The position numbers and the translations under genes were made by a program. Source: a virus. From it: a stretch of 64,000 nt of DNA. The number at the start of each line of letters is the position of its first letter. Position 1 is the stretch's first letter. Of this stretch, positions 13,361-62,735 are shown piece after piece. Under the pieces are notes generated by a model. That model was not told the DNA's origin. It saw only the letters and a program-made list of their open reading frames with translations, and searched no databases. The stretch covers positions 151,251-215,250 of IMG/VR virus record IMGVR_UViG_3300031963_000006. One strand, given 5' to 3'.

Positions 13361-13966
13361 ATGATAGAAGTTATCAAATACGGTGATTTCAAGCCGACAG
13401 GTAAACAGAAGAAAAAACAACAAATTATATTACAACACACCTCAAGAAATATTGAGGAATATCTCCTTAGTTTGAAATATAGATTTAACGGTGGGTATAA
13501 AAAAATACCTAACTACGTTGTCAGTCGAGATGGAAAGATATTACAACTTTTAGAAAACGAATCTCACTCTAAAATATTTTCTGAAGAAAACATAAACAGA
13601 AATTCCATAATTATTTCATTGGAAAATTTGGGATGGTTAGAAAAAGAACCATTAAATAATCAATATGTTAACTGGATTGGAGATATTTATAAGGGTGACG
13701 CTTATGAAAAAAAATGGAGAGACTATTTTTTTTGGCAACCTTATACCGAAACTCAAATAGAATACACTGCTAAATTGTGTAGAAAAATTTTAGATGAGAC
13801 AGGAATACCAAGAGAGGTTGTGGAACATAACACACGTATAAATGGAGTTGAGAAATTTAGAGGGGTAACCTCAAAAAGTAATTTCGATAGTGTTTTTACT
13901 GATTTGAGTCCGGCCTTTAATTTTGAAACATTTTTAAAATATTTGAATGATGAACAATTCACATGA
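13361..13966 (+). CDS. N-acetylmuramoyl-L-alanine amidase (amidase_2-like), endolysin candidate
   Basis: 201 residues without a signal peptide. Zinc ligands fit H26 (LQHTSR) and H155 (VEHNTR); NYVVSRDGKILQLLE and IISLENLGWL match the core strands, and SKSNFDSVFTDLSPAF supplies the catalytic Lys region of the T7-lysozyme-like fold. It would cut the amide between muramic acid and the peptide. Without a signal it needs a holin or pore for export. Located just before the spanin-like pair, consistent with a lysis cassette. Confidence 0.8.
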   Translation: MIEVIKYGDFKPTGKQKKKQQIILQHTSRNIEEYLLSLKYRFNGGYKKIPNYVVSRDGKILQLLENESHSKIFSEENINRNSIIISLENLGWLEKEPLNNQYVNWIGDIYKGDAYEKKWRDYFFWQPYTETQIEYTAKLCRKILDETGIPREVVEHNTRINGVEKFRGVTSKSNFDSVFTDLSPAFNFETFLKYLNDEQFT

Positions 13967-14555
13967 TGAAATTAAAAAATTATTAAAAGCTTCGAGGAGT
14001 ATGCTCTCGAATAATACCATCAACGAACAGATAAGTGAGATTAAGAATAGATATGGTATTATTACAGAACAGGGTTCGGACTTAGCGTCAGATAACATCA
14101 CTAAAAAAATGAATATTGCTAAGTCTGTTGAGGATAAAATCGAAGACGATACTGAACCCGACAGAGATAAAAGTCAGGGTTATAGAATATCAGGGGGAAT
14201 AATGGTTTTACACGGAAAAGATTCCTCAGATTTAGAATTGACAACCGACGATAAAATCGCGTTCCAAGAAACAATGGATGAGTTTGTTAATGAGGTATCA
14301 GACTTGGTAGATTTTAATAAATTAAACGTATATCCAAACAATGTTGAATGGTCAGGAAAAATTATCGATTTTGATATTGAATTTTTCTTTTCAATAGGTG
14401 AAGACGGAGGAATGTACATTAATGGAGATATGATTAAGGCTGATGAAAATTTTGTGGAGATGATTAATAAGTTAAAAACTTATTATGATAAGTTCAAGTC
14501 AAAATGGGCTAAAGTTTTGGCTTCACGTAAAAAAACAAATAAGGTAGAAAAATGA
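13947..14555 (+). CDS. Putative virion protein with (I/L)xE-type N-terminus
   Basis: 202 residues starting inside the amidase 3' end (20-base overlap) and ending with ATGA overlap on the next gene. The N-terminus contains NTINEQISEI and GIITEQGSD, two sites of the form I-x-E before Q, as in the tagged proteins described in the findings. The core (80-180) looks like a mixed alpha/beta domain with YPNNVEWSGKIIDFDIEF. A structural or packaged role is inference. Confidence 0.65.
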   Translation: MMNNSHDEIKKLLKASRSMLSNNTINEQISEIKNRYGIITEQGSDLASDNITKKMNIAKSVEDKIEDDTEPDRDKSQGYRISGGIMVLHGKDSSDLELTTDDKIAFQETMDEFVNEVSDLVDFNKLNVYPNNVEWSGKIIDFDIEFFFSIGEDGGMYINGDMIKADENFVEMINKLKTYYDKFKSKWAKVLASRKKTNKVEK

Positions 14556-14899
14556 ACGAAATTTTAAAAACAGTATTGTTATTTGTTATAGTAGCTTTGG
14601 TGGGATATTCAGTTTTCTTGACTAATGGTATAAAAACTGATGTTCAATCGCACTATGATAAGATTGATAGTTTACAAATATCTATAGATTCCGCAACGGC
14701 TGTAAACTCAATGATAGACGAAAAATTACTAAAATTAGATGCCGACATAAACAATGTGACTAACGAAATTTTGGCGGTAGACCAAACAATAAACGATATT
14801 AAAATTCAAACAAATGGTAAGGTTATTAATGTTGATAAGTATACTCATACTGAGCTTAAAAAGTTTTTCTCAAAAAGATACAACTCAGCTGGAAATTAG
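14552..14899 (+). CDS. Inner-membrane coiled-coil protein, i-spanin candidate
   Basis: 115 residues: a signal-anchor helix (7-25) then a periplasmic coiled coil rich in Asp/Ile/Leu. Its last 86 bases are shared with the start of the next gene in another frame, an arrangement typical of spanin gene pairs. Assignment as spanin rests on topology and context only. Confidence 0.55.
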   Translation: MNEILKTVLLFVIVALVGYSVFLTNGIKTDVQSHYDKIDSLQISIDSATAVNSMIDEKLLKLDADINNVTNEILAVDQTINDIKIQTNGKVINVDKYTHTELKKFFSKRYNSAGN

Positions 14900-15218
14900 T
14901 ACTCAGACTGCACGACTGATTATAAAAGATTTAATTAAGTATGATGGATGTAAAGACGAGTTGACTCAAGCTTATATAAAAATTGGAAAGCTTGAAGAAA
15001 GAGAATCTCTTAAAGACACCATGATAACTTATTTGGAAAAGAAAGATTCAACATACCAATTTATTATTCAACAAAAAGATGGTCAAATAGTTGAGTACGG
15101 TAAAGTAAATACAAAACTCCAAAGTGAATTGGACTCTAAGAATAAACAATTCAAATGGTATAAACGAGGTACTATCGCAGGAGGAGTATTTCTTATACTA
15201 TTACTATTAGCAATTTAA
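14814..15218 (+). CDS. Exported coiled-coil protein with C-terminal anchor, spanin-like (Rz-like)
   Basis: 134 residues. Signal peptide of about 20 residues ending SFSQ, typical of Bacteroidetes; then a periplasmic coiled coil with the pattern ARLIIKDLIKYDGCKDEL, and a C-terminal transmembrane helix (115-132). No lipobox, so it differs from classical o-spanins and u-spanins. It overlaps the preceding gene by 86 bases. Likely helps breach the outer membrane at lysis; inference from topology and neighbouring amidase. Confidence 0.6.
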   Translation: MVRLLMLISILILSLKSFSQKDTTQLEISTQTARLIIKDLIKYDGCKDELTQAYIKIGKLEERESLKDTMITYLEKKDSTYQFIIQQKDGQIVEYGKVNTKLQSELDSKNKQFKWYKRGTIAGGVFLILLLLAI

Positions 15219-15220
15219 CT

Positions 15221-15466
15221 ATGGCACTTTCAGATTCAGATAAAAAACAAATAGAAGTTATGATTCGAAAGGAAATTAAGGATTTCATCGGAAGTAACAC
15301 TATGAGACAGTATGAGGATAAGATTTTAGAATTAGTGTCTAAAGAAATCCGTAGAGGTAAACTTGAAAGTGACACTAAAGAAATAGTAATAAAAGTCTTC
15401 AGAGAGTTCTACAATTTTATGTGGTCTCAACGAGGATATTGGGAACCAAGATTAAAAAATGCGTAA
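15221..15466 (+). CDS. Small conserved phage protein, helical
   Basis: 81 residues, predicted all-helical, with a characteristic C-terminus FNFMWSQRGYWEPRL. I recognise the overall pattern as one that recurs in Bacteroidetes phages but know no function. Stop overlaps the next start by 8 bases. Confidence 0.7.
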   Translation: MALSDSDKKQIEVMIRKEIKDFIGSNTMRQYEDKILELVSKEIRRGKLESDTKEIVIKVFREFYNFMWSQRGYWEPRLKNA

Positions 15467-22083: not shown

Positions 22084-23475
22084 ATGAGATTTACACAACT
22101 TCTAACAAATTTGATTTTGGAACAATCACGTTTCCAAGTTCTGTATGACAAAATGGTTAAACCCGCAAAAGGTTCTGACGAGGAGGGTAAAAAGGCAAAA
22201 GGATTGATGCCCTTTGAAGTATTAAAACATATTATTTTTGCTGACCCAACCACAGTAGGCCCAAGATTTACAGATAATGAAAGTCGCTTGGAGTTTATAT
22301 TAACTGCCACAGAGGAAGAAATGGAGAAAGTTAAAGTTGGTAAGTATACTCAATGGTTGTTGAAGAATTTTGTGGCTCCTACGTTTGATGACATAGATGA
22401 GAGAGCTAATATAGAAAAAGGTACTACCGAGTATAAAAGAATGATGAAAGATTATCAAAGTTTGTTCTTGGAAGACTTACACAAAATTACCGAAGACCTT
22501 AAAAAGTACGAGAGATTTAAGAATCAGTTACCTCAAGATAAAAGAGATATCAATAAAATCTCCGCTAGTGAACTTTATGATTTGGTTAAAGATTTTAAAT
22601 TAGAAAAGACCAAAGCATCCAAAGAGGAAAAAGAACAAGCTAAAACATCATACCAATATCCTGGTAGTGAAATCATGTACAGAGGTTCTGATTGGACTTT
22701 GATTAAGATTGAAGATAAAGGTGAGATTGGAAAAAATGCCGCAATATTTTTCGGAGGTTACCAAGATGGAGATAATGGTGAATCAAGATGGTGTACATCC
22801 GCACCTGGATTAAGTTACTTTAATACATACATTAAAGATGGACCTTTGTATGTTGTTTTACCAAACGATGATAAAGGACAAGTTGGTAAAAGAACAGGAC
22901 TTCCAGTTGAAAGATATCAGTTTCACTTCCCATCTAATCAATTTATGGATAGACACGATAGAACTGTAAGTTTAGTTGAATTGTTAAATGGAAAAATGTC
23001 TGAACTTAAAGAGTTCTTTAAACCTGAATTTGCAAAAGGTTTGGTAAGTAAAGGTGGAAATAAAGTTGAAGTTAATTATCCTGATAGTTCGGCGGGTAAG
23101 TTTATTGCTCTATACGGATTTGAAGAATTATTTGAAAGTTTACCTGATACAATTGAACATCTTATTGTTACAAACAAATCAAAAGAAAATATTGCTTTGG
23201 ATGTTCCAGAAAGTATCACAAGATTTAAGAACCTTGATGCGTTACTAATGTCAAATATTGTTAGAACATTACCTGAAAATTTGGGTGACCTGAAAAATTT
23301 GAAGTTTTTGAATTTGGCAAATAACAAAGATTTAGTATCTTTGCCAGAATCAATCAAGGACATACCTAATTTGGCCCTACTCAACCTTAAAGGAGCAAAT
23401 CCAAATGTTGAGATACCACCGGCACTTAAAGAGGTATTGTCTGACGAAGGAGAAGGATTTTACTATCTTACTTAA
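22084..23475 (+). CDS. Tagged leucine-rich-repeat protein
   Basis: 463 residues. N-terminal tag MRFTQLLTNLILEQ with I-L-E before Q14. The middle contains RWCTSAPGLSYFNTYIKDGP, a motif shared by a class of phage and plasmid proteins. The C-terminal 110 residues are leucine-rich repeats (VPESITRFKNLDALL, LPENLGDLKNLKFLNL, LPESIKDIPNLALLNL), a binding solenoid. Possible injected or virion-associated binding protein; partner unknown. Confidence 0.7.
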   Translation: MRFTQLLTNLILEQSRFQVLYDKMVKPAKGSDEEGKKAKGLMPFEVLKHIIFADPTTVGPRFTDNESRLEFILTATEEEMEKVKVGKYTQWLLKNFVAPTFDDIDERANIEKGTTEYKRMMKDYQSLFLEDLHKITEDLKKYERFKNQLPQDKRDINKISASELYDLVKDFKLEKTKASKEEKEQAKTSYQYPGSEIMYRGSDWTLIKIEDKGEIGKNAAIFFGGYQDGDNGESRWCTSAPGLSYFNTYIKDGPLYVVLPNDDKGQVGKRTGLPVERYQFHFPSNQFMDRHDRTVSLVELLNGKMSELKEFFKPEFAKGLVSKGGNKVEVNYPDSSAGKFIALYGFEELFESLPDTIEHLIVTNKSKENIALDVPESITRFKNLDALLMSNIVRTLPENLGDLKNLKFLNLANNKDLVSLPESIKDIPNLALLNLKGANPNVEIPPALKEVLSDEGEGFYYLT

Positions 23476-27383: not shown

Positions 27384-27707
27384 ATGGAAATAGGAACGCA
27401 AGAACTAAAGGAAAAAATTCAAAAAGGGGAAAAATTAATTGTCGACTTTTATGGAAGTTGGTGTGGTCCCTGTAAAATCTTAAAACCAATTTATGAAAAA
27501 GTTGCTAAAGATTTGGAAAATCAAAAATCTGAAGTAAAACTTTACACTATGGATGTCGATAAAAATAGAGAAATGGCGGCGTCATTAGGTATTAGAAGTG
27601 TGCCAACCGTAAAAAGTTTTGCGAATGGTAAAGAAATGAACACTAAAGTGGGATTGTTACAGGAAAATATGATATTAGATTTAGCAAAAAATTTATTAAA
27701 TGGATAA
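27384..27707 (+). CDS. Thioredoxin
   Basis: 107 residues, full thioredoxin fold with active site WCGPC (VDFYGSWCGPCK) and cis-Pro in SVPTVKSF. Phage thioredoxins typically reduce phage ribonucleotide reductase or act as processivity factors. No reductase lies in this window. Overlaps the glutaredoxin gene by 8 bases. Confidence 0.92.
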   Translation: MEIGTQELKEKIQKGEKLIVDFYGSWCGPCKILKPIYEKVAKDLENQKSEVKLYTMDVDKNREMAASLGIRSVPTVKSFANGKEMNTKVGLLQENMILDLAKNLLNG

Positions 27708-27981
27708 GATTGTAGTTGTGTTCACAATGAAAACATGTGGATTCTGTGAACAATTTAAAACAAAATTGACTGAGAATAACATTGGGTTCGTAAATAGAGA
27801 TATTAACGAAAACAAAGAGGAATATGACGCTTTCGTGAAAGCCACGGGAAATGATTTTGTTCCTTCTTTTATGGTTATAGAATCTCCGAATGAAAATCCA
27901 AAGTCGTATTTGTACGCACCTGGAAAAGATTTCGAAGATTTGGACAAAGCTTTAGGTATTATCAAAGAACACTTAGGTTAG
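27700..27981 (+). CDS. Glutaredoxin-like protein
   Basis: 93 residues with active site CGFC (MKTCGFCEQF) and cis-Pro in FVPSFMV. Overlaps the thioredoxin gene, so the two redox carriers are co-expressed. Confidence 0.85.
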   Translation: MDKIVVVFTMKTCGFCEQFKTKLTENNIGFVNRDINENKEEYDAFVKATGNDFVPSFMVIESPNENPKSYLYAPGKDFEDLDKALGIIKEHLG

Positions 27982-27983
27982 TT

Positions 27984-28508
27984 ATGAACCTTTCTTTTAG
28001 AAAAAAAGGAGTATTACACGTACCTGTCAACTCATGGGAGTTGGATGATGGTAATACCGTTGTTATATATCAGGGTTCGCGTGGTGCGAATCCTGATTTA
28101 GATTTTATTGTCAAATATAAAGCTCCGAATAAAAGATTGAGAGCACCATCCCATACTCATTGGATTGTTGATTTAATTATCAAATCTAAGTTTGCTCCCG
28201 ATGAACTATGTTTATTTGTAAATGAATGGATTGAACTCTATGATGTTATTGAACCGTTCAAAACGGTTGAAGAGAGGGGTAACTACCAATTGATATATAA
28301 AGACTACTTCAATGAAAAACATTTTACGTTAGATAATTTGGGAGAATTTTCACTCGAGTTTGTTTCTACACTTATTGAGTTATTTATACGTTGTGAAAAA
28401 CAAACGCCAAACGCGTTCATGTTCAAAAATCTACTCCAACTCATGAGTGATTATTGTCAAAATAAAAAAGATTTCTATCAAGTCGTATCTTACTCAAAAA
28501 GAGTTTAG
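27984..28508 (+). CDS. Hypothetical protein
   Basis: 174 residues, alpha/beta with FRKKGVLHVPVNSWELDDG and RAPSHTHWIVDLIIK. No family recognised. Its stop is interlocked with the stop of the convergent gene (4-base overlap). Confidence 0.6.
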   Translation: MNLSFRKKGVLHVPVNSWELDDGNTVVIYQGSRGANPDLDFIVKYKAPNKRLRAPSHTHWIVDLIIKSKFAPDELCLFVNEWIELYDVIEPFKTVEERGNYQLIYKDYFNEKHFTLDNLGEFSLEFVSTLIELFIRCEKQTPNAFMFKNLLQLMSDYCQNKKDFYQVVSYSKRV

Positions 28509-29588: not shown

Positions 29589-29680
29589 ATCTTTTTATTT
29601 TTAAACGTTTATATATCATAAATATCTAAATTTGGTATATATTGTAAATATTTTATTTGAATTAACAAATATTTATGATT

Positions 29681-33489: not shown

Positions 33490-33675
33490 ATGAGAGGTAA
33501 AATTCTATCTGAAGAACAATTTAAAGATAAGTTAATCCAAATTTATAATGAGGAGAAACATTCTTTGGTCAAAGAAAAAATTCAAATGTATGTTGAAAAA
33601 AGAAAGTCTTCCGTTAACGAAGAGGTTCAAGATTCATTAATAACATTGAAGAATATTTTTGGAGGTAAAAAGTAA
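33490..33675 (+). CDS. Small tagged protein
   Basis: 61 residues starting MRGKILSEEQFKDKLIQIYN: the tag has L-S-E at 6-8 and a helical continuation. The rest is Lys/Glu-rich helix. TAATG overlap with the DHH gene. Candidate packaged small protein. Confidence 0.55.
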   Translation: MRGKILSEEQFKDKLIQIYNEEKHSLVKEKIQMYVEKRKSSVNEEVQDSLITLKNIFGGKK

Positions 33676-38145: not shown

Positions 38146-38721
38146 ATGACAAAGTTCGATAAAACATTAATATCTTATATCAGTACAACTACTGATTTTG
38201 CAGATATTGATATAAGTGTGGAGGAACATCACGGTAGTAAGTATTTGATTGCTCGAGTTGATGTTGAAAAGATTGACGAAAATAGTCCAAAGTATGACCA
38301 ATCTTATGCGGAAAAATTAATCAGAAAAAGAAGACCAAATCAACCGGCTTTCATCACCCCTATGAATGCTTTGGAAAAAAGATTAGTAGAAGCGGGAAAA
38401 TTTTTTGGTGAATTAGAATATAAGACGGCTTTTTTACCAAAAAATCATGAATTTTTAGATGATATTGAGAAAAAAGTTCAAGAAGCGGTTAAAGAAATAA
38501 GTCCTGAGTTTGACGCTGGAATTTCGTGGGACTCCGATTACCCAAAACCTGTATTAACAATATATCTTGGTGGTCATAAAAACTACAATCAATTTTATAG
38601 AGCAAAATATGGTCTTGGCGGTGAAAATTTCTTAGAGGACATAGAAAAAAAAGTAGGTGATAATATATCACTCAGACATTATCAATGGAGAATTTCAAGT
38701 AGTAAGAAAACCGCTGATTAG
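38146..38721 (+). CDS. Hypothetical protein
   Basis: 191 residues. DISVEEHHGSKYLIARVDVE, YDQSYAEKLIRKRRPNQP and KPVLTIYLGGHKN; alpha/beta, no family recognised. Interlocked stop with the convergent gene. Confidence 0.6.
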   Translation: MTKFDKTLISYISTTTDFADIDISVEEHHGSKYLIARVDVEKIDENSPKYDQSYAEKLIRKRRPNQPAFITPMNALEKRLVEAGKFFGELEYKTAFLPKNHEFLDDIEKKVQEAVKEISPEFDAGISWDSDYPKPVLTIYLGGHKNYNQFYRAKYGLGGENFLEDIEKKVGDNISLRHYQWRISSSKKTAD

Positions 38722-39410
38722 AATTCTACATAACCAACAGTACCGTCACCTTCATCTTCCTCAATGTTTTGTTCAAATTGAAGTTCTATCAATTTTCTTG
38801 ATGGGTAAATATAAAACGAACCCTGAGACCCTTCATTAATCTCCCAACCACCAAAATGATATTGTAACATATCGTAACACCATTCTTCAATAAATGATGG
38901 TATGTCCATTGATTGACCGCTAGATAATTCAATATTGTCATGTATTTGACCTGAGTCACCACTACCATCAAAACTTAGTTTACCGGGCTCGTCACCCATT
39001 TGTTCAAAGAATCTATCAAAATCCTCTTTTAAATCACCAAAATCATCATCCTCACTATTCCATTCTTTATAAGAATCATCGGTTGAATATTCTCTATGAT
39101 AACCTTCAATATTCATTTTGCGCTCTTTAACATCAATTTCAAAGTGTAATGTACCGGAGCCATCGTAGTCATAATAATTCAATAATTCGGTTTCCCTTAA
39201 AATATAATCAATTAATTCATTAATTTTATCATAAGTATCAATTAGTGTATTTGTTTCAGAATACCAATAACTATCTACCCAATCTATACTACCACCTTCA
39301 TTAAGATATACTGTTAATGTTGCCGTTTTAGCACCATAACTACCGCAGTAGTATGAAAACAATTTTAAAGTTTTTAATTGTTCTTCTGATAATTTAAGAT
39401 TTTTTGTCAT
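38718..39410 (-). CDS. Acidic hypothetical protein with tag-like start
   Basis: 230 residues, strongly acidic. Begins MTKNLKLSEEQLKTLKLF (L-S-E at 7-9), matching the tag pattern. An ATATTTAT box (minus) ends 4 nt before the ATG. Gly/Asp-rich middle (DGSGDSGQIHDNIEL). No catalytic motif. Confidence 0.6.
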   Translation of the reverse strand: MTKNLKLSEEQLKTLKLFSYYCGSYGAKTATLTVYLNEGGSIDWVDSYWYSETNTLIDTYDKINELIDYILRETELLNYYDYDGSGTLHFEIDVKERKMNIEGYHREYSTDDSYKEWNSEDDDFGDLKEDFDRFFEQMGDEPGKLSFDGSGDSGQIHDNIELSSGQSMDIPSFIEEWCYDMLQYHFGGWEINEGSQGSFYIYPSRKLIELQFEQNIEEDEGDGTVGYVEF

Positions 39411-39774: not shown

Positions 39775-39777
39775 ACT

Positions 39778-39785
39778 CAAAAATA
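39778..39785 (-). promoter_or_regulatory. Host-type -7 box TATTTTTG, minus strand
   Basis: Matches TAnnTTTG, 3 nt before ATG 39774. Divergent with the ATATTTAT box at 39798-39805, so one gap holds one promoter of each type. Confidence 0.45.
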
Positions 39786-39797
39786 GTAATTTTGATT

Positions 39798-39805
39798 ATA
39801 TTTAT
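39798..39805 (+). promoter_or_regulatory. ATATTTAT promoter box
   Basis: Four nt before ATG 39810. Confidence 0.5.
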
Positions 39806-39809
39806 CAAT

Positions 39810-40361
39810 ATGAAGTTTATTATCTCTGAACATCAACAAGAAAGATTGAGTGTTTATGACAAGGCTCAAAGAATGTTTTTTAAATTTTGGGACAAAAACG
39901 GGCCAAAGGCTGATGACTTGTTCTTCAAACTTTTTGGATTTACTAATATTGGTTTAGAGTTCGGAGGATTTATGATAAGTAGAAACGACGTTTATAGAAT
40001 GTTAAGAAAGTGGTATGGTGGTGATAACGCAAAATCTAAGGCAATTGACTTATTGAAACAAAAAAACTATACGGTTAATTCTTGTGGAGGATATAACTTT
40101 GATTTTGAAGTTGTTCATTATAAAATTGATAATGATATTGGTGAAATATATGTTATAGTAAAACCTGATGTAGAAAATGGAACAGTTACTTTATTAATGA
40201 TTGGAGGTGAGGAAGAAAATTTGGGTGATGCAATAAACAATCCTGATTATGGGTTTGAAATAGAAGGAGAAATAGCCGATTGCATCTATGAATTATTGAT
40301 TAAAAAAATCACAGAAACAACCGGCTTTTTAATTAGTATCGATAGATTAATTTTAGATTAA
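39810..40361 (+). CDS. Tagged hypothetical protein
   Basis: 183 residues. Tag MKFIISEHQQERLSVYDKAQ with I-S-E at 5-7. The frame is open 22 codons further upstream but the promoter box fixes ATG 39810. Body alpha/beta with FFKLFGFTNIGLEFGGFMIS. Interlocked stop with the convergent gene. Confidence 0.6.
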   Translation: MKFIISEHQQERLSVYDKAQRMFFKFWDKNGPKADDLFFKLFGFTNIGLEFGGFMISRNDVYRMLRKWYGGDNAKSKAIDLLKQKNYTVNSCGGYNFDFEVVHYKIDNDIGEIYVIVKPDVENGTVTLLMIGGEEENLGDAINNPDYGFEIEGEIADCIYELLIKKITETTGFLISIDRLILD

Positions 40362-41021: not shown

Positions 41022-41429
41022 ATGTCTAAAATTAAAGAAACATTAAGAGATAGGATTGGTAAAATTTTGGTTGAGACAGCAACCGAAAAATACTTAGAGA
41101 TTATCAAACACACATTAAAGGGTGATAGGGAATTTAAAGGTAAATACCTCATGCCTTATACTGATAAGGATGACTATGTTGATTTTATAATTAATTACCA
41201 TGTAACCAAAGTTAGTCTTTGGAAATCAAATGGAAAACATTGTCAGTACGAAGGTGTCGTTTATGTTAAAATAGATAAAATAATGGTTGGGTTTGAAGGT
41301 ACAAATGATTGGGAAGAAGTTAGAAGAATACAATATTTACCTTCTTGGGTTGAAGATGAGTTTAAAGATTTGATTCAAAACGAATTAAGTGTATTTGATA
41401 ATATCTGTATGGACGTTGATTACGAATAG
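41022..41429 (+). CDS. Tagged hypothetical protein
   Basis: 135 residues. Tag SKIKETLRDRIGKILVET with L-V-E before T19. Body begins KYLEIIKHTLKGDREFKGKY and is alpha/beta. No family recognised. Confidence 0.6.
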   Translation: MSKIKETLRDRIGKILVETATEKYLEIIKHTLKGDREFKGKYLMPYTDKDDYVDFIINYHVTKVSLWKSNGKHCQYEGVVYVKIDKIMVGFEGTNDWEEVRRIQYLPSWVEDEFKDLIQNELSVFDNICMDVDYE

Positions 41430-47413: not shown

Positions 47414-47814
47414 TGTTACTTAACGCTTTTATTTTTTTAGTTTTTGCAGGTATAACCAAAGGATTTTTGGATTATTATGCCGACTCAGGAATTAAAGAGA
47501 AGGAATGGAGAAACAAATATAAGATATCCGAACACGGTGATTTGATTAAGACTGAGGATATAAAACATTGGTGGTATTTAGGTTTATATAAACCAAGATT
47601 CGCAGAAAGATTTCCATTTAGTACGACAATATTGGTGGCTTTCACAGATAGATGGCACTTGGCTCAGTTAATTATGTTAAGATTCTTCTATTTGGCGGTA
47701 GCTGTAGGTGTGAGTAATAGTATATGGTGGGAATTATTATTATCATTCGTTGTATTTCCTATGGTAATAGGGGTGTTCTTTGATTTCACCTATTGTAAAC
47801 TCAAAAAGAGATGA
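47413..47814 (+). CDS. Membrane protein
   Basis: 133 residues with about four hydrophobic stretches; ISEHGDLIKTEDIKHWWYLG and FTDRWHLAQLIML. Coupled to both neighbours (TAATG, ATGA). Unknown. Confidence 0.6.
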   Translation: MLLNAFIFLVFAGITKGFLDYYADSGIKEKEWRNKYKISEHGDLIKTEDIKHWWYLGLYKPRFAERFPFSTTILVAFTDRWHLAQLIMLRFFYLAVAVGVSNSIWWELLLSFVVFPMVIGVFFDFTYCKLKKR

Positions 47815-48233
47815 AATTTATAATCAAAGAAAGTAAGTTTAAAGAAACTATTATTGATAACATAGACAAGAATGGTCTATTAGATACACTTACTGTTACA
47901 AATATGAGTTTTACCAAATTGTTCTCAATGATTGGTATGGATTTTCTAACCAACAAAGTAATGATTAATTTTATTAGAGATTTTATAAAAGATTATGGAG
48001 TTTTTTCAGTTCACGATATAGGTGAAGACCCAATTCCATATAATAAAACGGGTGATGAATATAGAGAAATATCATATTTTTCAAAACAATATGTATATGT
48101 TGATGTTTATAGTGGAAATAACAATTTGGGTAATTTCAAAGTACATTATGAAAATTTATCTGATGATATACTGACGGAAGTCTTTGATTTAGTTATGGAA
48201 GCATATGAGGATGGAAAATTTAACAACATATGA
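47811..48233 (+). CDS. Tagged hypothetical protein
   Basis: 140 residues. Tag MKFIIKESKFKETIIDNI with I-K-E at 5-7. Core contains FTKLFSMIGMDFLTNKVMIN. ATGA junctions on both sides. Unknown. Confidence 0.6.
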   Translation: MKFIIKESKFKETIIDNIDKNGLLDTLTVTNMSFTKLFSMIGMDFLTNKVMINFIRDFIKDYGVFSVHDIGEDPIPYNKTGDEYREISYFSKQYVYVDVYSGNNNLGNFKVHYENLSDDILTEVFDLVMEAYEDGKFNNI

Positions 48234-48570: not shown

Positions 48571-49062
48571 ATGAATAATAATTTAAAAGAAGAATTACAA
48601 AGGATTAAAGAAATAATGGAGGTTTTAAATGAACAACTTCCATCAGTTCCTCAGTTATCTGATATAGGACTATCTTTACCCACGCCAGCAAGTACCTTTA
48701 GTGAACCAAGTTGTAAAGAAGAATATACGAAAGAAGAACTAGTTAAGGGTCTTGTGAAATGGTGTAAAAGTAAACCAAATTTTAATAAAGATGCCGGTAA
48801 CAGAGCAGGTGTAATACACAACGATTTAATTAATGTGTCAACTTCAATGATTACTACAGGTGAACTTAAAAATACCAAAACAACAGAGTCTTTTTGTGGT
48901 GTAATTAATAATTATTATTCAAAAGGATGGGACTTTATAAAGGACATTGATAATAAAACTCTTCTTAGTTGGGATAATGTCTATGAATCAATTCCTCAAA
49001 GTATTAAAACTGACTCAAAACAACAAAAATGTAAAATAAGACGTACTAGTTTTGATGCCTGA
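48571..49062 (+). CDS. Tagged Cys-containing protein
   Basis: 163 residues. Tag EELQRIKEIMEVLNEQ with L-N-E before Q22, the RIxxxMxxLNEQ type shared with the protein at 61674 and with the C-terminus of that at 16430. Mature part has four or more Cys and LVKGLVKWCKSKPNFNKDAG. No family recognised. Confidence 0.6.
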   Translation: MNNNLKEELQRIKEIMEVLNEQLPSVPQLSDIGLSLPTPASTFSEPSCKEEYTKEELVKGLVKWCKSKPNFNKDAGNRAGVIHNDLINVSTSMITTGELKNTKTTESFCGVINNYYSKGWDFIKDIDNKTLLSWDNVYESIPQSIKTDSKQQKCKIRRTSFDA

Positions 49063-49081: not shown

Positions 49082-49480
49082 TTAATATACTGGTGTGTTT
49101 CTTCTGTGAGGGTAGATTGATACTTCATCAATATCAACATCAAACTTCTCACTAAACCAATCGGCAACAACATCCATAACCTTTGTTTCTCTAATTGATA
49201 CCATGAGACGGATTGTCTCTACAATATCAGGATGGATGTGTAAGTTACCAATACCATAATGTTTGCGTGCCTCCATACCAAAGTACGCGTCATCAAATTC
49301 GCCTGAACCAAAAAAGTAATATGTGATTCCCCCATTCCCTGTATTAGGGAGTAATGCAATTCTATATGCGTCACGATTATGAGGATTTACAATTTTTTTG
49401 CCATCTGATTCTGAAAATTTCTCATCCAAATATTTGTAGATGATACTATGAAGTTGAGTTTGTGTTATTATATATCTCAT
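49082..49480 (-). CDS. Array-associated tagged protein
   Basis: 132 residues starting MRYIITQTQLHSIIYKYLDE, a clear variant of the tandem-array start, but with a longer body (DAYRIALLPNTGNGGITYYF) and ending VVADWFSEKFDVDIDEVSIY, which parallels the W-V-E-x-x-L-x-x-V end of the family. Last gene of the minus-strand array. Confidence 0.65.
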   Translation of the reverse strand: MRYIITQTQLHSIIYKYLDEKFSESDGKKIVNPHNRDAYRIALLPNTGNGGITYYFFGSGEFDDAYFGMEARKHYGIGNLHIHPDIVETIRLMVSIRETKVMDVVADWFSEKFDVDIDEVSIYPHRRNTPVY

Positions 49481-49481
49481 A

Positions 49482-49787
49482 TTAGGATAACGAATTTATT
49501 TTTAAATCATATTCTTTTTCTAAGTAAAGTGCCATCATGTCTATGAACGTGATAATTTTTATACTAAACATATCCCACTCATTACTAAAATATCCTCCAT
49601 TAAAATAATAATTATGGAGCTCACCTTCTGAGGGAGAGCCAACTAATAACTCTCCATCAGGACCCCATAATACTTTCCATTTTTCACCGTCATAATTTCT
49701 TATCTCCAATTTTGAATTCTTAAATCTTGAATCAAAAAACGGTTTCATTAGTTTGTAAAGTTGTTCTTGGTTTAAAAGGTATTCCAT
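49482..49787 (-). CDS. Array-associated tagged protein
   Basis: 101 residues starting MEYLLNQEQLYKLMKPFF. Body YDGEKWKVLWGPDGELLVGS. The C-terminus ALYLEKEYDLKINSLS matches the array family tail loosely. An ATATTTAT box lies 5 nt upstream. Confidence 0.6.
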   Translation of the reverse strand: MEYLLNQEQLYKLMKPFFDSRFKNSKLEIRNYDGEKWKVLWGPDGELLVGSPSEGELHNYYFNGGYFSNEWDMFSIKIITFIDMMALYLEKEYDLKINSLS

Positions 49788-49799
49788 AACGTATAAATA

Positions 49800-50117
49800 T
49801 TAACCAGCACCGTAATCTGAGTAGGGGTATTTAATTTCAATACCAATTTTACCCTCAACCCATTTTGCAATTATCATTAAAGAACGAGTCAAGTTCAAAG
49901 AAAAGAATTCTGCAACTTCGGTTAGAATATCTGAACTTATATAACAATCATCACTCATGTAATAATATGCAATTTTTGCATATTGATTGTCTTTATAACT
50001 ACGTTCAGATTCAAAGAAATAATGACCTCCACCATCTTCACGATGATAAAAGTCCTGAGTATTAAGATACTTAAATACTATACTATCAATTTGAGATTCG
50101 GTTATTAGATATTTCAT
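49800..50117 (-). CDS. Tandem-array family member 1
   Basis: 105 residues. Shared head MKYLITESQIDSIVFKYLNT and shared tail (FFSLNLTRSLMIIAKWVEGK), with its own middle (YHREDGGGHYFFES). Follows the 50119 gene with a one-base gap, so is probably co-transcribed. One of seven close paralogues. Confidence 0.75.
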   Translation of the reverse strand: MKYLITESQIDSIVFKYLNTQDFYHREDGGGHYFFESERSYKDNQYAKIAYYYMSDDCYISSDILTEVAEFFSLNLTRSLMIIAKWVEGKIGIEIKYPYSDYGAG

Positions 50118-50118
50118 A

Positions 50119-50502
50119 TTAAGAGATATTAGCGTTTCTCACATCAAATACTTTATATTCGGGGAACACAACATTAAAGGCGTCTGACATTAAATATTTA
50201 CCGTGAACATACCAAAAAGGATGTGGAAGTATCTTTTCAAACAAGTCACCAAATTCTCTACTATAATATAATTCACCTGTCATACCATCCTCATATATAA
50301 CAAAAACACATATTGTTTCACCATTAGAATTGGATATGAAAATTCTATTAGTTCCATCATCATATGAATCAAATTGGTCAACAATGTAAGGAATAATTTT
50401 ATCCTTTATCTTATTGTATTGTTCCTCATATTGAAAATCCCTCCAATCCCTTTCAAGTTCGGAGATAAGTTTAAGTTGTGATTCTGTGATTATATATTTC
50501 AT
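50119..50502 (-). CDS. Tagged protein inserted in the array
   Basis: 127 residues. Tag MKYIITESQLKLISELERDW matches the array head for nine residues, after which the sequence is unrelated (RIFISNSNGETICVFVIYED). Shows the tag is separable from the family body. Confidence 0.65.
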   Translation of the reverse strand: MKYIITESQLKLISELERDWRDFQYEEQYNKIKDKIIPYIVDQFDSYDDGTNRIFISNSNGETICVFVIYEDGMTGELYYSREFGDLFEKILPHPFWYVHGKYLMSDAFNVVFPEYKVFDVRNANIS

Positions 50503-50505
50503 GTT

Positions 50506-50817
50506 TTAAAAATAATATACAACGATATCTGATTGAACATCAACCGCACTATAATGTGTGCCAGTTTTACTTTCAACCCACTTAGAAATTGCGGAAATAG
50601 CATCGATATTACTCAAAGAAAAGAAAGAAACGATTTCATCCATTAATTTTCTATCAATCGTACACCAATAACTATTGAATCTAATTTGAGCGTATTCATC
50701 TTTCTCTGAATTAAGGAAATAACCGTTTATTCCATACTCCATATAAACAAAGTCCTGATTATCCAAATACTTAAAGATTAGGTTTTCAATTTGAGATTCG
50801 GTGATTAGGTATTTCAT
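50506..50817 (-). CDS. Tandem-array family member 2
   Basis: 103 residues from ATG 50817; the frame is open further upstream into the next gene, but the family head MKYLITESQIENLIFKYLDN and an ATATTTAT box 6 nt before it fix the start. Tail FFSLSNIDAISAISKWVESK. Confidence 0.75.
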   Translation of the reverse strand: MKYLITESQIENLIFKYLDNQDFVYMEYGINGYFLNSEKDEYAQIRFNSYWCTIDRKLMDEIVSFFSLSNIDAISAISKWVESKTGTHYSAVDVQSDIVVYYF

Positions 50818-50842
50818 ATGATTATAAATATAACGTATTACT

Positions 50843-51160
50843 CTATCTAACGTGTACTTCCCTAACATTCGTATCCAATTTATTTTCAACCCATCTACCG
50901 ATAATATATTTAGAATCATTAAAGTCCAATGAAAAGAATGTGGTAATCTCATCAATCAATTCATGATTTATCCAACAATCACCATCTCGATAGAAATTAA
51001 TTAATGAATCAGTATATAAATCTTCACTTGAATTAAGAAAGTGAATTATATTGCTAAACCCAAAAGACGTTTTAGGTGATTTTTTTATAATAAAGTCCTG
51101 ATTATCGAGGTACTTAAAAACAACATTATCAAGCTTAGATTCGGTGATAAGATATTTCAT
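50843..51160 (-). CDS. Tandem-array family member 3
   Basis: 105 residues. Head MKYLITESKLDNVVFKYLDN, variable middle with TSFGFSNIIHFLN, tail FFSLDFNDSKYIIGRWVENK. ATATTTAT box 51173-51166. Confidence 0.75.
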   Translation of the reverse strand: MKYLITESKLDNVVFKYLDNQDFIIKKSPKTSFGFSNIIHFLNSSEDLYTDSLINFYRDGDCWINHELIDEITTFFSLDFNDSKYIIGRWVENKLDTNVREVHVR

Positions 51161-51172
51161 ATGATATAAATA

Positions 51173-51502
51173 TTAGTTAGGAGTTCTTAAAGAAGAAACC
51201 ATATCTTCAGTGACAAAGAATATGTTGGTAACCTTCATTTTTAAATTATTTTCAACCCACTTACCAATAACTTTTTTAGAATTAGATTCTCGCAGAGAAA
51301 AGAAGGAAGAAATTTCGTTAACCAATTTATAAGATATAAAACACCACTCATCATTTTCATCATATCTAATCTGAGCATATTCATCATTTTCGGAATTAAC
51401 AAAAAATAAACTAACACTATCGCCGACAACAATAAAGTCCTGATTATTCAAGTACTTAAAGATTACATTATCAATTTGTGATTCGGTGATAATATATTTC
51501 AT
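51173..51502 (-). CDS. Tandem-array family member 4
   Basis: 109 residues. Head MKYIITESQIDNVIFKYLNN, middle DEYAQIRYDENDEW, tail FFSLRESNSKKVIGKWVENN, then a divergent C-terminal extension. Upstream box is ATAAATAC on the plus strand, one mismatch. Confidence 0.75.
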   Translation of the reverse strand: MKYIITESQIDNVIFKYLNNQDFIVVGDSVSLFFVNSENDEYAQIRYDENDEWCFISYKLVNEISSFFSLRESNSKKVIGKWVENNLKMKVTNIFFVTEDMVSSLRTPN

Positions 51503-51524
51503 ATGATATAAATACTAGTTATAT

Positions 51525-51830
51525 CTATCTAATTATAATTTCTTTAACTCTTCTACCCAAAGTATTTTCAACCCATCTGGCAATAACATATTTAGAACCA
51601 TCAAATTCCATAGAGAAGAATTCTGCAATTTCATTAATTAACTCAAAACTCATGACACACTCACCACCACTTCTATAGTATTGGATTAATCCGCCCGAAA
51701 ATTCATCATTTTCTGAATTAACGAAGTAAGTTATATTATCACTATTCATTTTCTTAATAATAAAGTCCTGATTATCCAAATACATGAATATAAGGTTATC
51801 AATCTGTGATTCGGTGATAAGATATTTCAT
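51525..51830 (-). CDS. Tandem-array family member 5
   Basis: 101 residues. Head MKYLITESQIDNLIFMYLDN, tail FFSMEFDGSKYVIARWVENT. ATATTTAT box 51843-51836 abuts the stop of the next gene upstream. Confidence 0.75.
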   Translation of the reverse strand: MKYLITESQIDNLIFMYLDNQDFIIKKMNSDNITYFVNSENDEFSGGLIQYYRSGGECVMSFELINEIAEFFSMEFDGSKYVIARWVENTLGRRVKEIIIR

Positions 51831-51842
51831 ATGGTATAAATA

Positions 51843-52178
51843 TTAATTATAATAGGGTATTCTCAACGCAAACCACTTCGTGTTGTTGCGCCATTCGGTG
51901 TTTGTGACCTTCATTTGTAGTCTATTTTCAACCCATCTACCAATAACTGGTTCAGAATCATAATGTGACATAGAAAAGAAGGTGGAAATTTCTTCAATTA
52001 ATTTATAATGTACATAACACCAATTATCATTTTTATCATATTTAATTTGAGCGTATACATCATTCACTGAGTTCACGAAGTATATTTTTTCATCAAAGTT
52101 AATCTGAATAAAATCTTGGTTATCCAAATACTTAAAGATTACTTTATCAATTTGTGATTCGGTGATTAGGTATTTCAT
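51843..52178 (-). CDS. Tandem-array family member 6
   Basis: 111 residues. Head MKYLITESQIDKVIFKYLDN, middle DVYAQIKYDKNDNW (close to member 4), tail FFSMSHYDSEPVIGRWVENR. Overlaps the 52175 gene by four bases and lacks its own box, so is read from upstream. Confidence 0.75.
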   Translation of the reverse strand: MKYLITESQIDKVIFKYLDNQDFIQINFDEKIYFVNSVNDVYAQIKYDKNDNWCYVHYKLIEEISTFFSMSHYDSEPVIGRWVENRLQMKVTNTEWRNNTKWFALRIPYYN

Positions 52179-52486
52179 TTGATTAATATTACGTCTATTG
52201 TTATACCATAAACTTCATACGGGGGAAAACCTGTATTGGGGCTATAACCACTTGTTTTAATATCCAAATAAGTCAATATTGTTCTCCTAATCTCACGTTC
52301 AAAATTTCGTTCTTTTAATTCGTCAGGGTTATAATGGTTAGGGTTGGTTATGTATGAATCATCAATATCATAAAAATAAACATCAATTAATATCTCATCA
52401 TCATATTCACTCTTTCTAACTTTAATCTTTTCAGGTGAGTATAACGATTCAATCAACTTAACAATGGCTTTAATTTTACTGTTCAT
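52175..52486 (-). CDS. Hypothetical protein within the array
   Basis: 103 residues from ATG 52486, MNSKIKAIVKLIESLYSPEK. No tag and no resemblance to the family. Middle VYFYDIDDSYITNPNHYNPD. Unknown. Confidence 0.6.
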   Translation of the reverse strand: MNSKIKAIVKLIESLYSPEKIKVRKSEYDDEILIDVYFYDIDDSYITNPNHYNPDELKERNFEREIRRTILTYLDIKTSGYSPNTGFPPYEVYGITIDVILIK

Positions 52487-52496
52487 ATGATATAAA

Positions 52497-52826
52497 TTAC
52501 GACCATATACCACCGACGCGTTTCTGAGCCGCGGAGAGAGGTTTAATGTGAGACACCTCTACCTCTAAAGTTTTTTCAACCCATCTAGCGATAACTACTT
52601 TAGAATCAGATTTATCCATAGAAAAGAAGTCGGAAATTTGATTAATTACTTTGTCACTAAGCATACAAACTCCACTTTCTTTATTGTATACAATTATAGA
52701 GGTGACATCTCCCTCAGATTTTTTAAAGTATATTTTATTATCCTTTTTAACTTGAACTAATCCTTGACTATCCAAATACATGAATATAAAGTTATCCATT
52801 TGTGATTCTGTTATAATGTATTTCAT
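52497..52826 (-). CDS. Tandem-array family member 7
   Basis: 109 residues. Head MKYIITESQMDNFIFMYLDS, middle diverged (KKSEGDVTSIIVYNKESG), tail FFSMDKSDSKVVIARWVEKT. ATATTTAT box 52839-52832. First gene of the array in the direction of transcription. Confidence 0.75.
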   Translation of the reverse strand: MKYIITESQMDNFIFMYLDSQGLVQVKKDNKIYFKKSEGDVTSIIVYNKESGVCMLSDKVINQISDFFSMDKSDSKVVIARWVEKTLEVEVSHIKPLSAAQKRVGGIWS

Positions 52827-57958: not shown

Positions 57959-58495
57959 ATGAAATTTATTCTTACAGAGTCACAATACGCAGGATTAATG
58001 AAACTAATCAAAAAACATGAAGACGATTTAAGTTTTTTGAAAAGTAGCGTGGTCACATCAATTGAACATGATGTAACAGATTTATTAAACTCCAAGTTTC
58101 AAGGTAGATTTGGACACTATGGTTATATGCAATACCCCTCATTTTTTATTTATCCCGAAAAATTGGCGTCCGAACTTGCGAAATATAATGTAAGGGAACC
58201 ATTTTTGGTTATTGAGTATCATGTAAAAAAATCCACAGGTAAAGTTGAAATTAACATCTTTTGGAATTCAAACATATATTTTGATTATAAAAAAGAAAAT
58301 GGTAGATGGGAAAGACATAGACAACCCAAAAATAGTATTAAGTGGGACTATATAAATAACCCTGATGGACAAGAGGAATTCTTATCTAAATTGGAAAAGA
58401 CCATTAACGGAAGAATTAGTGAAAAGGCTCAAAACAAAATTATTAATGATTTTGAAAAACTTTATTCAGGGCCATCACCTAAGTTTTTTTCCTAA
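57959..58495 (+). CDS. Tagged hypothetical protein
   Basis: 178 residues. Tag MKFILTESQYAGLMKLIKKH with L-T-E at 5-7, like the array head. Body alpha/beta: YNVREPFLVIEYHVKKSTGK and KVEINIFWNSNIYFDYK. Occupies one whole cassette between two C-rich repeats. Unknown. Confidence 0.65.
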   Translation: MKFILTESQYAGLMKLIKKHEDDLSFLKSSVVTSIEHDVTDLLNSKFQGRFGHYGYMQYPSFFIYPEKLASELAKYNVREPFLVIEYHVKKSTGKVEINIFWNSNIYFDYKKENGRWERHRQPKNSIKWDYINNPDGQEEFLSKLEKTINGRISEKAQNKIINDFEKLYSGPSPKFFS

Positions 58496-59873: not shown

Positions 59874-60218
59874 ATGAATAATATTGAACAATATAGAAAA
59901 AGGTTCTTTATGTTAATGGAGTCATCAATGGGTGATGTTAAACCATTAATCTTGGAAACCAGTTTAGATTTGAATACTGCAACCATATATTGGATGAGTT
60001 GTGGAGGTGATGAAGTTGAATTAACTCCCGATTCTAAGAAACTGTTATTACCTGGTAAGGTAATAAATAATACACAATATTATTATTTTGATTCTGAACC
60101 TAATGACGCCATTGGTGAATATAAAATTATGGAATGTCTTGGACCTGAGATTGGCAAACAAGATGATTTGTATATTGATGGGGATTCGGGTAAATTATTC
60201 TTAACTAAGAATTATTAA
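59874..60218 (+). CDS. Tagged hypothetical protein (FFMLMES type)
   Basis: 114 residues. Start NNIEQYRKRFFMLMESSMGD followed by VKPLILE: L-M-E before S17, then a G-D-V-K-P-L-I segment that I recognise as recurring at the starts of unrelated proteins in related phages. Body beta-rich with IYWMSCGGDEVELTPDSKKL. Unknown. Confidence 0.6.
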   Translation: MNNIEQYRKRFFMLMESSMGDVKPLILETSLDLNTATIYWMSCGGDEVELTPDSKKLLLPGKVINNTQYYYFDSEPNDAIGEYKIMECLGPEIGKQDDLYIDGDSGKLFLTKNY

Positions 60219-60499: not shown

Positions 60500-60500
60500 T

Positions 60501-60549: not shown

Positions 60550-60556
60550 AAAAGGG

Positions 60557-60606: not shown

Positions 60607-60622
60607 CTTTGTGGTATCTTTG
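60592..60622 (+). promoter_or_regulatory. Bacteroidetes-type promoter (TTTG, 19 nt, TATCTTTG)
   Basis: TTTG 60592-60595 and TATCTTTG 60615-60622; ATG 60639 follows by 16 nt. Confidence 0.65.
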
Positions 60623-60638
60623 TCAAAAATTAATCACA

Positions 60639-61562: not shown

Positions 61563-61568
61563 TTTGCT

Positions 61569-61605
61569 ATCCCCCATTTCTTATTGTAGAGTGGGGGATT
61601 TTTTT
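61569..61605 (+). terminator. Rho-independent terminator
   Basis: ATCCCCCA, loop, TGGGGGAT, TTTTTT after the endonuclease gene. Confidence 0.8.
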
Positions 61606-61656
61606 CTATAAATTTTTTTCGACGGTTTCCGATTCCCCCTACCCCCTTTTTTATTT
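61606..61656 (+). repeat. C-rich cassette repeat, copy 5 (TTCGACGG subtype)
   Basis: TTCGACGGTTTCCGATTCCC then CCTACCCCCTTTTTTATTT; pairs with copy 1. ATATTTAT box follows at 61662. Confidence 0.75.
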
Positions 61657-61661
61657 ATAGT

Positions 61662-61669
61662 ATATTTAT
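61662..61669 (+). promoter_or_regulatory. ATATTTAT promoter box
   Basis: Four nt before ATG 61674. Confidence 0.5.
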
Positions 61670-61673
61670 TTAT

Positions 61674-62735
61674 ATGTCTAAAAGATTTGTAATTAGTGAA
61701 AACGAAATCCGAGAAATCAGGTCAATGTACGGATTATTAAATGAACAAGAAAGAGTTATAAATGCGTCTACATCTCCTGAAAAAATGTCCAACTTTCCTG
61801 GAAATCAAAAATTTGGTTTGAGAGGGGATAAAACTAAAGAAAATTTTTATTTCAAGTCAACATTAAAAAATTTAATATTTGCCAGTACTGGTGATGCAAC
61901 AAATTATCTCTCAAGTTTCACTCCTACAAATGATGCTAAACAATATGTTGACTACATAAAAATTGGGGATAATGAATTAACAAATCAAGGAAGTATTAGT
62001 TTTGATTTGAGAACTTTACCTTCCTCAACTGAAGTTATTGCGACTCACAATGGTTTATTGTTATTGAGAAGAATGATGAATGAATTGGGAGGACAAAAAA
62101 ATGGAAAAGTAACTTTGAGTATGAGTTCGGAGGTTAGAGAGTCGGGGCAAAAAAACTATACAATATCAGGTTTATCTTCCTCAATAATTGCCGGATTCAA
62201 TGGGTTATCATCTGTTTTGGGAGTTTTGATTGTTCCCCAACAAGAAAGAGAGAAAATAAGTGATGGATACGCTGTCCAATATTTTAAAGATAAAAGTGAC
62301 GATGAACTTAAAAGTATGGCCCTAAAATTTATGAAAAACATAACATCTTACTATTTTTTGGCAAAACAAGATGTTCCCCAAATAGATACAATAATTACTG
62401 ATAAACAATTTACAACTGCTGCTGACACAAGTGCATTTGAAACTTATTATGGTAATGGACTAACCAGAGATAATTTATCTGTTTTAAATTCATCTTGGAA
62501 AAAATTACAAGACGAGTTAAAAAGTATTATGATATCCAACATGAAATTGTATTACCCTGAGGATTTCCAAGGGTTAGCCGAGAAAGCGGCTGAGATGGTT
62601 AAATCAGCATATTCTACAGATAAGTTTAATGAAAATTACAGTAGATTATTCAAACAAAGTGAACTTGGTAGATTATCTCCAATCCAACAAGGTACAAAAA
62701 CCCAATCTTCCACTTCTTATCAATTAGGAAAGTAA
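61674..62735 (+). CDS. Tagged hypothetical protein (double tag)
   Basis: 353 residues. Head SKRFVISENEIREIRSMYGL followed by L-N-E-Q joins both tag types: I-S-E at 7-9 and L-N-E before Q25. Body has SISFDLRTLPSSTEVIATHN and KVTLSMSSEVRESGQKNYTI, alpha/beta, with a Thr/Ser/Gln-rich end. Likely packaged; no family recognised. Confidence 0.65.
   Translation: MSKRFVISENEIREIRSMYGLLNEQERVINASTSPEKMSNFPGNQKFGLRGDKTKENFYFKSTLKNLIFASTGDATNYLSSFTPTNDAKQYVDYIKIGDNELTNQGSISFDLRTLPSSTEVIATHNGLLLLRRMMNELGGQKNGKVTLSMSSEVRESGQKNYTISGLSSSIIAGFNGLSSVLGVLIVPQQEREKISDGYAVQYFKDKSDDELKSMALKFMKNITSYYFLAKQDVPQIDTIITDKQFTTAADTSAFETYYGNGLTRDNLSVLNSSWKKLQDELKSIMISNMKLYYPEDFQGLAEKAAEMVKSAYSTDKFNENYSRLFKQSELGRLSPIQQGTKTQSSTSYQLGK

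Follow-up and report, generated by a model that had tools for sequence, protein, structure and literature searches.

Exchangeable N-terminal leaders as candidate capsid-targeting propeptides in a T4-related phage and its freshwater relatives

A tagged protein set in a viral genome

The DNA analyzed here (the window; 64,000 nucleotides) covers bases 151251–215250 of a 215,250-base IMG/VR virus record (IMGVR_UViG_3300031963_000006), of which it forms the right-hand end. It encodes a series of tagged proteins, in which interchangeable leaders of about 6–40 residues, terminating in (I/L/V)-x-E, precede unrelated bodies (a slash marks the junction behind this E). Here, we describe these proteins and their relatives, and weigh the highly likely explanation that the leaders are T4-like capsid-targeting propeptides, removed by an S77 prohead protease.

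An earlier, sequence-only reading had proposed that proteins of the window share N-terminal tags. We inspected every start that it named, and the tags are real and far above chance. Among the 191 genes of at least 60 amino acids (aa) in the whole record, compared with 500 sets of windows taken elsewhere in the same proteins, the motif [ILVF][TS]E[SKEADNQ] is found at residues 3–14 of 21 proteins (null 3.3 ± 1.6, maximum 8) and [ILV]xE[QA] at residues 11–32 of 19 proteins (null 4.2 ± 1.8, maximum 10). The same excess is present in a long relative, G006, and is weaker in a second one, G010, and in Flavobacterium phage immuto. The proposed number of more than 20 unrelated tagged proteins was too high, as we count about 18 unrelated families in the window, or about 24 genes including array copies (Table 1). 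The proposed members are tagged or at least candidates, except for the minus-strand gene at 38718, whose homologues align through the helix without the motif. The tandem array at 49.1–52.8 kb does share an early (I/L)TE, but represents one paralogous family, most copies of which lack a helix-end (I/L)xE; a similar array lies at 229–231 kb in G006. Support beyond their own sequence was obtained for the genes at 13947, 16430, 22084, 29675, 33675, 36823, 37627, 56401, and 61674. Further tagged genes lie outside the window, at positions 1577, 2082, 3807, 4820, 5499, 86158, 91281, and 108463 of the record. Separately, a superoxide-dismutase-like gene (by eye; record 83017–83796, locus L005, minus strand) has an N-terminal extension with LITE/M, and is a possible extra tagged cargo.

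Table 1. Tagged and candidate tagged genes of the window (window coordinates)
Feature	Position	Strand	N-terminus and remarks
Tagged protein, 202 aa	13947..14555	+	MMNNSHDEIKKLLKASRSMLSNNTINE/QISEIKNRYGIITE/QGSDL; two (I/L)xE sites in series
DUF5661-containing protein, 311 aa	15459..16394	+	Start MRKIKLTENILKQL; doubtful tag member
Tagged protein, 405 aa	16430..17647	+	MKKSLNNYINSLVNKIINE/TIEERADELV; zinc-ribbon-like CxxC motifs by eye
Tagged protein, 463 aa	22084..23475	+	MRFTQLLTNLILE/QSRFQVLYDK; leucine-rich repeats at C-terminus
Tagged protein, 466 aa	29675..31075	+	MIMTKSLSFKNTVKNILIE/QNEEEFYKISPEE
61-aa open reading frame, weak candidate	33490..33675	+	MRGKILSE/EQFKDKLIQIYNE/EKHS; sole relative seen near-identical (L207)
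DHH-family-like protein, 466 aa	33675..35075	+	Minimal leader MKKILSE/SGIRD
Tagged protein, 104 aa	36823..37137	+	MKNILISEKQLADLVGKVKNNVSE/SNEPGSYMAKQQL
Tagged protein, 149 aa	37627..38076	+	MDNKFKNKLFEEVKKRGLLSE/QEETEK, then DUF5856/phrog_858 body
Candidate, ESQ-type	39810..40361	+	MKFIISEHQQERL; internal ATG of open reading frame 39744–40361; own sequence, no relatives found
Candidate	41022..41429	+	MSKIKETLRDRIGKILVE/TATEK; own sequence, no relatives found
Candidate	47811..48233	+	MKFIIKE/SKFKETI; own sequence
Candidate	48571..49062	+	MNNNLKEELQRIKEIMEVLNE/QLPSV; own sequence
Tandem array, about 9 diverged small paralogues	49082..52826	-	Most begin MKYIITESQ(I/L)D; tag membership uncertain
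Strict class I leader, 112 aa	56401..56739	+	MKKVIRLTESDLTKLVKRIINE/MDNDDF
Candidate, ESQ-type	57959..58495	+	MKFILTE/SQYAGLMKLIKKHE; own sequence
Candidate, 368 aa	58697..59803	+	MNLKQRIKLILNE/ALGIPDD; helix-matrix rank 24 in genome, no relatives found
Candidate	59874..60218	+	MNNIEQYRKRFFMLME/SSMGDVKPL; own sequence
Class III leader, 353 aa	61674..62735	+	MSKRFVISENEIREIRSMYGLLNE/QERVINAS

The phage and its relatives

Outside the window, T4-like genes recognized by eye include a family-B-type polymerase, UvsX, a gp41-like helicase, and NrdA/NrdB, as well as structural genes for a gp18-like sheath and for gp25-like and gp6-like baseplate proteins. Among isolates, UvsX is closest to that of Flavobacterium phage immuto (MW353175; 44% identity), and relatives of it are encoded in hundreds of IMG/VR stretches, the best 80 of which are all at least 87% identical. 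The long relatives G006 (326 kb) and G010 (166 kb) both encode a Gp23-family capsid protein, the gene of which is surrounded by terminase, portal, protease, and scaffold genes. In G010 (locus L116), a bS21-like open reading frame (28076–28258, minus strand) lies on the opposite strand between the portal and protease genes. The available part of a study on bS21-encoding Bacteroidetes phages describes them from freshwater (lakes), with genomes of up to 331 kb and a reverse-strand bS21 gene amid genes for terminase, portal, prohead protease, and major capsid protein (PMC9723584); the head layout of G010 ties the clade to these published phages. Because the head region of the present record is missing, its placement is argued via similarity to G010 and G006, which makes it most likely a T4-related phage of the freshwater Bacteroidota "bS21" clade. 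The hosts of leader-bearing phages are predicted to be Bacteroidota.

The RLTESDL leader

Class I leaders follow the consensus M-K-K-(I/V)-I-R-L-T-E-S-D-L-x-R-(I/L)-V-K-R-V-(I/L)-x-E/. A degenerate DNA pattern for MKK(I/V)IRLTESDL, stopping at residue 12, matched at least 120 IMG/VR stretches versus a single stretch (a 3.2-kb contig of a metagenome-assembled genome) among 84,980 prokaryote genomes, and 289 non-identical class I proteins were collected from all loci. Columns 13–22, which lie outside the selection, are likewise conserved (x-R-(I/L)-V-K-R-V-(I/L)-x-E), with column information of 1.76 bits at the second E, 0.66 bits at the next residue, where Q is favored (66 of 185), and 0.04–0.25 bits beyond. 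The 185 proteins with a full leader fall into 138 unrelated body clusters, 116 of them singletons. Between 13 leader copies of a single genome, differences affect 29.5% of third codon positions versus 9.2% of first and second positions, an excess indicating that selection acts on the peptide.

The strict pattern occurs 1–13 times per genome in 21 of the 22 clade genomes searched, and was absent from six phoH-selected jumbo contigs, immuto, and T4; the reversed pattern had no matches in 30 records. A tblastn search of 50,697 isolated-phage records with the 23-residue leader consensus returned nothing, a query this short being insensitive, while a search of isolates for homologues of three tagged proteins yielded either nothing or only partial hits, which were to pelagiphages, cyanophages, and unclassified records. 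The present record has two strict copies, at window position 56401 (scoring 46.5 bits against a matrix derived from other phages, and matching the strict DNA pattern) and record position 1577; its remaining leaders are shorter helices, ESQ-type or LTEEEK-type. Several other loci (L315, L338, L318, L406, and similar ones) carry a variant leader that is longer by one helical turn, LTESDLHRIIERSVSKILKE/, which suggests a second clade with the same system.

Leader exchange at a conserved junction

Among relatives, homologous bodies follow leaders that are unrelated to one another, yet every joint reads (I/L/V)-x-E. In three phages, the leaders of the FFSNL protein (record 2082) are MKRIIRLNESDVTNLVKRVLNE/, MRNLDRIIKKVIRE/, and MNTPLKKIIHKVLKE/, and the GSRGSY protein (record 3807) starts with MDLNQIIKKVLSE/AT, MEKKNLKE/ST, MKNIKE/MT, or MGKRIFVSESEKNTILKLHNLLE/AD. 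The 466-aa body at 29675 is preceded by MIMTKSLSFKNTVKNILIE/Q in the window, by MKKVIKLKESDIHNIVNILLE/Q in L210, and by MSIEKIIKKLLKE/E in L123. In the family at 22084, E13 is invariant among five distinct leaders, one of which (L288) is unrelated to the others (MENRQIIFEINQMRKFMNLPLLME/DSRFEIL), and the homologue of the 36823 protein in L304 again has another leader, MAKVILTETQLKKLESQLKESEVIE/GKDGNYMAKQQL. Relatives of the 16430 protein read KILKE/TLEEK, KVLTE/TLEGK, KVLSE/ELSGK, and QVLSE/DSDKM at this place, and those of the 33675 protein MKKLISE/S and MKKILKE/G. The leader style of 61674 recurs at record 4820–5488 and 5499–6371 (both minus strand), the relatives of the latter showing ...NRILxLHExATKxxYLxxE/Q.

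Counted over distinct N-termini, with shuffled N-termini as the null (averaging about 30–57% of the observed counts), the site directly precedes the body in 23 of 23 cases for FFSNL (shuffled 11.2, maximum 18). For the DLAVWFG domain, in internal and N-terminal positions alike, it stands at distance 0 in 26 of 26 (shuffled 11.2, maximum 17). It also directly precedes the 463-aa body (5/5), the 466-aa body (7/7), and the record 108463 body (9/9), and in the 13947 family it lies at most 14 residues ahead of the conserved body in all 7 distinct N-termini (shuffled 2.1); every member of the PPPP family keeps the joint. In these alignments, the leader behaves as a detachable N-terminal unit with a conserved junction.

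A common helix in long and short leaders

We modeled the second half of the long leader as a weight matrix (the helix matrix), built solely from other phages, and ran it over the 62,682 positions of the record; its top four hits are all N-termini (p about 2e-5): window 56401 (rank 1) and 16430 (rank 4), and record 2082 and 1577. Two of these, record 2082 and window 16430, are short-helix leaders. By this measure, long and short leaders are the same thing, with the short helix equaling the second half of the long one. In G006, whose own tags are within the training set, we count 13 of the top 14 positions at the end of a protein or where a mis-called upstream ATG masks the start, nearly all of these being N-terminal.

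One family, GSRGSY/DLAVWFG, has a tag-like helix at its C-terminus too, e.g. KNEGLRDLIQKVLKESL, a feature also present in the relatives L145, L148, L154, and L155; in the present record (L001, 3807–4526, minus strand), the C-terminus reads IKLTESQIKRLIDTVLNN. This protein may be held at both ends.

Protease and capsid protein

The protease of G006 and G010 matches Pfam Peptidase_S77 (PF03420; E=7e-22, 78 bits versus a cut-off of 27), and its gene adjoins the gp23-type capsid gene. When aligned with T4 gp21, the columns of H85 and S140, which we take to be the catalytic residues, are invariant among the relatives' proteases. The gp23 of relatives carries LINE/A at residue 60 in 22 distinct sequences, close to the position of LTE/A65 in the T4 gp23 control, and immuto has IVSE/A. 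Matching sites, such as ESLSE/Q, are found in the relatives' scaffold. The internal proteins (IP) of T4, included as controls, show the same junction behavior (MKTYQEFIAE/A in IPII and IPIII, ITE/A in IPI), and in T4 record X04567 both IPII and IPIII are annotated with a leader of ten residues.

Among contigs of at least 84 kb, S77 was found in 25 of 31 leader-selected contigs versus 6 of 20 phoH-selected controls (Fisher p=4e-4). This contrast is carried by contigs of 80–150 kb (11/16 versus 1/14).

Predicted domains and neighboring genes

Pfam and PHROGs searches with the tagged proteins gave few matches: DUF5661, DUF5856/phrog_858, a weak DHH, and leucine-rich repeats. In the 37627 protein, the site is at residue 21, the phrog_858 match begins at residue 25 (E=1.5e-26), and the DUF5856 match begins at residue 50 (E=1.1e-21). 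The DHH match of the 33675 protein (E=5e-4) is under the family cut-off. An AlphaFold model of the 463-aa protein shows leader residues 1–14 as a low-confidence helix (predicted local distance difference test, pLDDT, <50), with most of the body confident, and a fold search against the PDB gave generic leucine-rich-repeat matches only. Ahead of these repeats, the same gene (22084–23475) encodes a conserved RWCTS...GPLYVV...RYQFHF...QFMD domain, which has no Pfam name and no PDB fold match.

The 15459 protein matches DUF5661 at residues 116–168 (E=4e-10); it has a tag-like start but no (I/L)xE within about 30 residues, and some homologues begin with MGKDRLKENMLTQ or MLKEEESF. In the rejected gene at 38718..39410 (minus strand), MTKNLKLSEEQLK belongs to the protein body itself, and the protein contains DUF6878 (E=1.4e-9). 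Elsewhere in the window, the start of the gene at 35621–36052 (plus strand) resembles, by eye, that of SmpB, the tmRNA (transfer-messenger RNA)-binding protein, and thioredoxin-like and glutaredoxin-like genes lie side by side at 27384–27981 (plus strand; by eye, WCGPC and CGFC motifs).

A candidate capsid-targeting system

The gp21 protease of T4 cleaves behind (L/I)-x-E, and the N-terminal 10 residues of IPIII are enough to direct packaging (PMC9026906). The leaders described here have those features of T4-type capsid-targeting sequences that can be tested in sequence, namely that they are shared by unrelated bodies and end in (L/I)-x-E, and the major capsid protein of relatives, gp23, carries the same site. 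The earlier proposal of capsid targeting and prohead-protease processing thus gains support from the detachable leader, the conserved joint, and the S77 protease and gp23 site of relatives. In the proposed mechanism, a short, usually amphipathic N-terminal helix probably docks the new protein onto the prohead core, after which the S77 (gp21-type) protease would cut behind (I/L/V)-x-E, so that the mature protein is released within the head. Maturation of the major capsid protein, and probably that of the scaffold, would use this cut too. The 22-residue RLTESDL leader, the short helix, the LTEEEK...YLxxE form, and the minimal M-K-x-x-I-x-E would be alternative types for the same cargo; as leaders are interchangeable, new cargo could be recruited by gaining one. 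Docking, cleavage, and packaging of the tagged proteins are what we infer from these data; more speculatively, by analogy with the internal proteins and Alt of T4 (PMC9026906), the cargo may be released into the host along with the DNA.

Several observations weigh against this explanation. The protease, absent from the window, had been expected elsewhere in the genome; the window indeed lacks S77, but the S77, Gp23, and T4-portal (gp20) Pfam models have no match anywhere in the 215-kb record, so the protease argument is drawn from relatives. Genes at 2–6 kb of the record, near its left end, are those that adjoin gp23 in G006 and G010, from which a loss of the head module at an assembly break is inferred; for the left-end gene, one contig was found (L563), itself broken near the same place. 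Among contigs of at least 150 kb, S77 is present in 14 of 15 leader-selected contigs versus 5 of 6 controls, and since it is common in large contigs without the leader, co-occurrence is weak evidence at this size. The six large controls (five with S77), T4, and immuto have no RLTESDL leader, so S77 can occur without this leader. Of the class I starts, about one in three (101/286) has no E at the expected place, the anchor of the P405 family is too loose and its count noisy (30/47), and the mature bodies are acidic, whereas the internal proteins of T4 are basic. The scaffold helix was not singled out by the matrix test, despite its likeness by eye: EISQLVKESLSE/Q looks leader-like, yet neither matrix ranked it top in G006 or G010, and we regard scaffold mimicry as a hint only. 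Lastly, no virion proteomics for the clade was found in the literature searched.

The leaders might instead be localization or docking signals for a non-prohead target, such as a membrane assembly site, a replication compartment, or a chaperone, that are never cut, with (I/L)xE merely marking the helix end. Amphipathic helices, as the leaders are, often mediate docking, and one family bears such a helix at its C-terminus as well (KNEGLRDLIQKVLKESL), which implies that binding need not depend on removal. A helix end alone, however, would not require an exact (I/L)xE at the joint, which is kept by unrelated leaders, even ones as short as MKNIKE/ and MKKKINE/, and the same site also precedes the gp23 body and the internal DLAVWFG domain; we therefore consider this alternative unlikely. 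More improbable still is that the starts became alike when gene starts (translation-initiation regions) were recently duplicated or recombined, with no role at the protein level; the codon-position differences led us to reject such a DNA-level origin. Several leader genes are adjacent and some are paralogues (the array and some class I clusters), but one genome holds 13 distinct DNA versions with a threefold excess of third-position differences, and conservation stops sharply at residue 22, in front of bodies from 138 clusters. Least probable of all is chance combined with start-site bias in the I/L/E/K-rich proteomes of AT-rich genomes. Short one-genome forms, such as LVE at 41022 and LME at 59874, are individually weak, and the genes at 39810, 41022, and 47811 could each still be chance, whereas for the set as a whole chance is refuted by the excess of both motifs over their nulls and by the absence of the reversed pattern.

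Comparison with known systems

Like the T4 system of IPI, IPII, IPIII, Alt, and gp21, the putative system combines a short M-K N-terminal propeptide, an (L/I)-x-E end, and unrelated bodies, and relatives encode a homologous S77 protease and a gp23 with the same site. It differs from T4 in its leader sequences (RLTESDL, LTEEEK, and ESQ types), its far greater number of cargo families, its acidic mature bodies, the C-terminal tag-like helix of one family, and its predicted Bacteroidota hosts. In phiKZ and SPN3US (gp175/gp245), head proteins are similarly trimmed by a diverged gp21 relative, behind a short motif whose last residue is E; the accessible part of one report gives this motif as A-x-E or S-x-E (PMC5694885). 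For phages of this type, the accessible part of another names a small number of short propeptides at N-termini (20 and 24 residues; PMC10052503). Unlike here, most propeptides there are longer than 100 residues and the known substrates are few, and the accessible texts describe no leader common to many unrelated proteins. The available part of the bS21 phage paper, which concerns bS21, likewise describes no N-terminal leaders (PMC9723584). Immuto shares a T4-like head module with S77 protease and a few similar starts, such as MKKQILSEQFKRMQFLAGIITE/S, but lacks the RLTESDL leader and has weaker tag enrichment. We found no description of these leaders in the literature searched, most subscription journals being outside its coverage.

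Implications for phage biology

On balance, we lean towards a clade-wide, exchangeable packaging code, in which a few leaders would route well over 100 unrelated, mostly nameless protein families into the heads of abundant freshwater jumbo phages, where they would be cut and from which the cargo would be delivered to Bacteroidota. If so, these phages carry a large virion-borne protein set into Bacteroidota cells at infection. The leader would then be a reading key that annotates nameless proteins from sequence alone. Most genes of such large phages have no known function or family-library match, and as the cargo mostly lacks family matches, a means of reading location from sequence would be of use: it would give hundreds of proteins a location and a mature N-terminus together. 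For laboratory use, the leaders would also add new members to the short tags by which proteins can be loaded into phage capsids, and what large phages bring into the cell besides DNA would become testable by ordinary proteomics.

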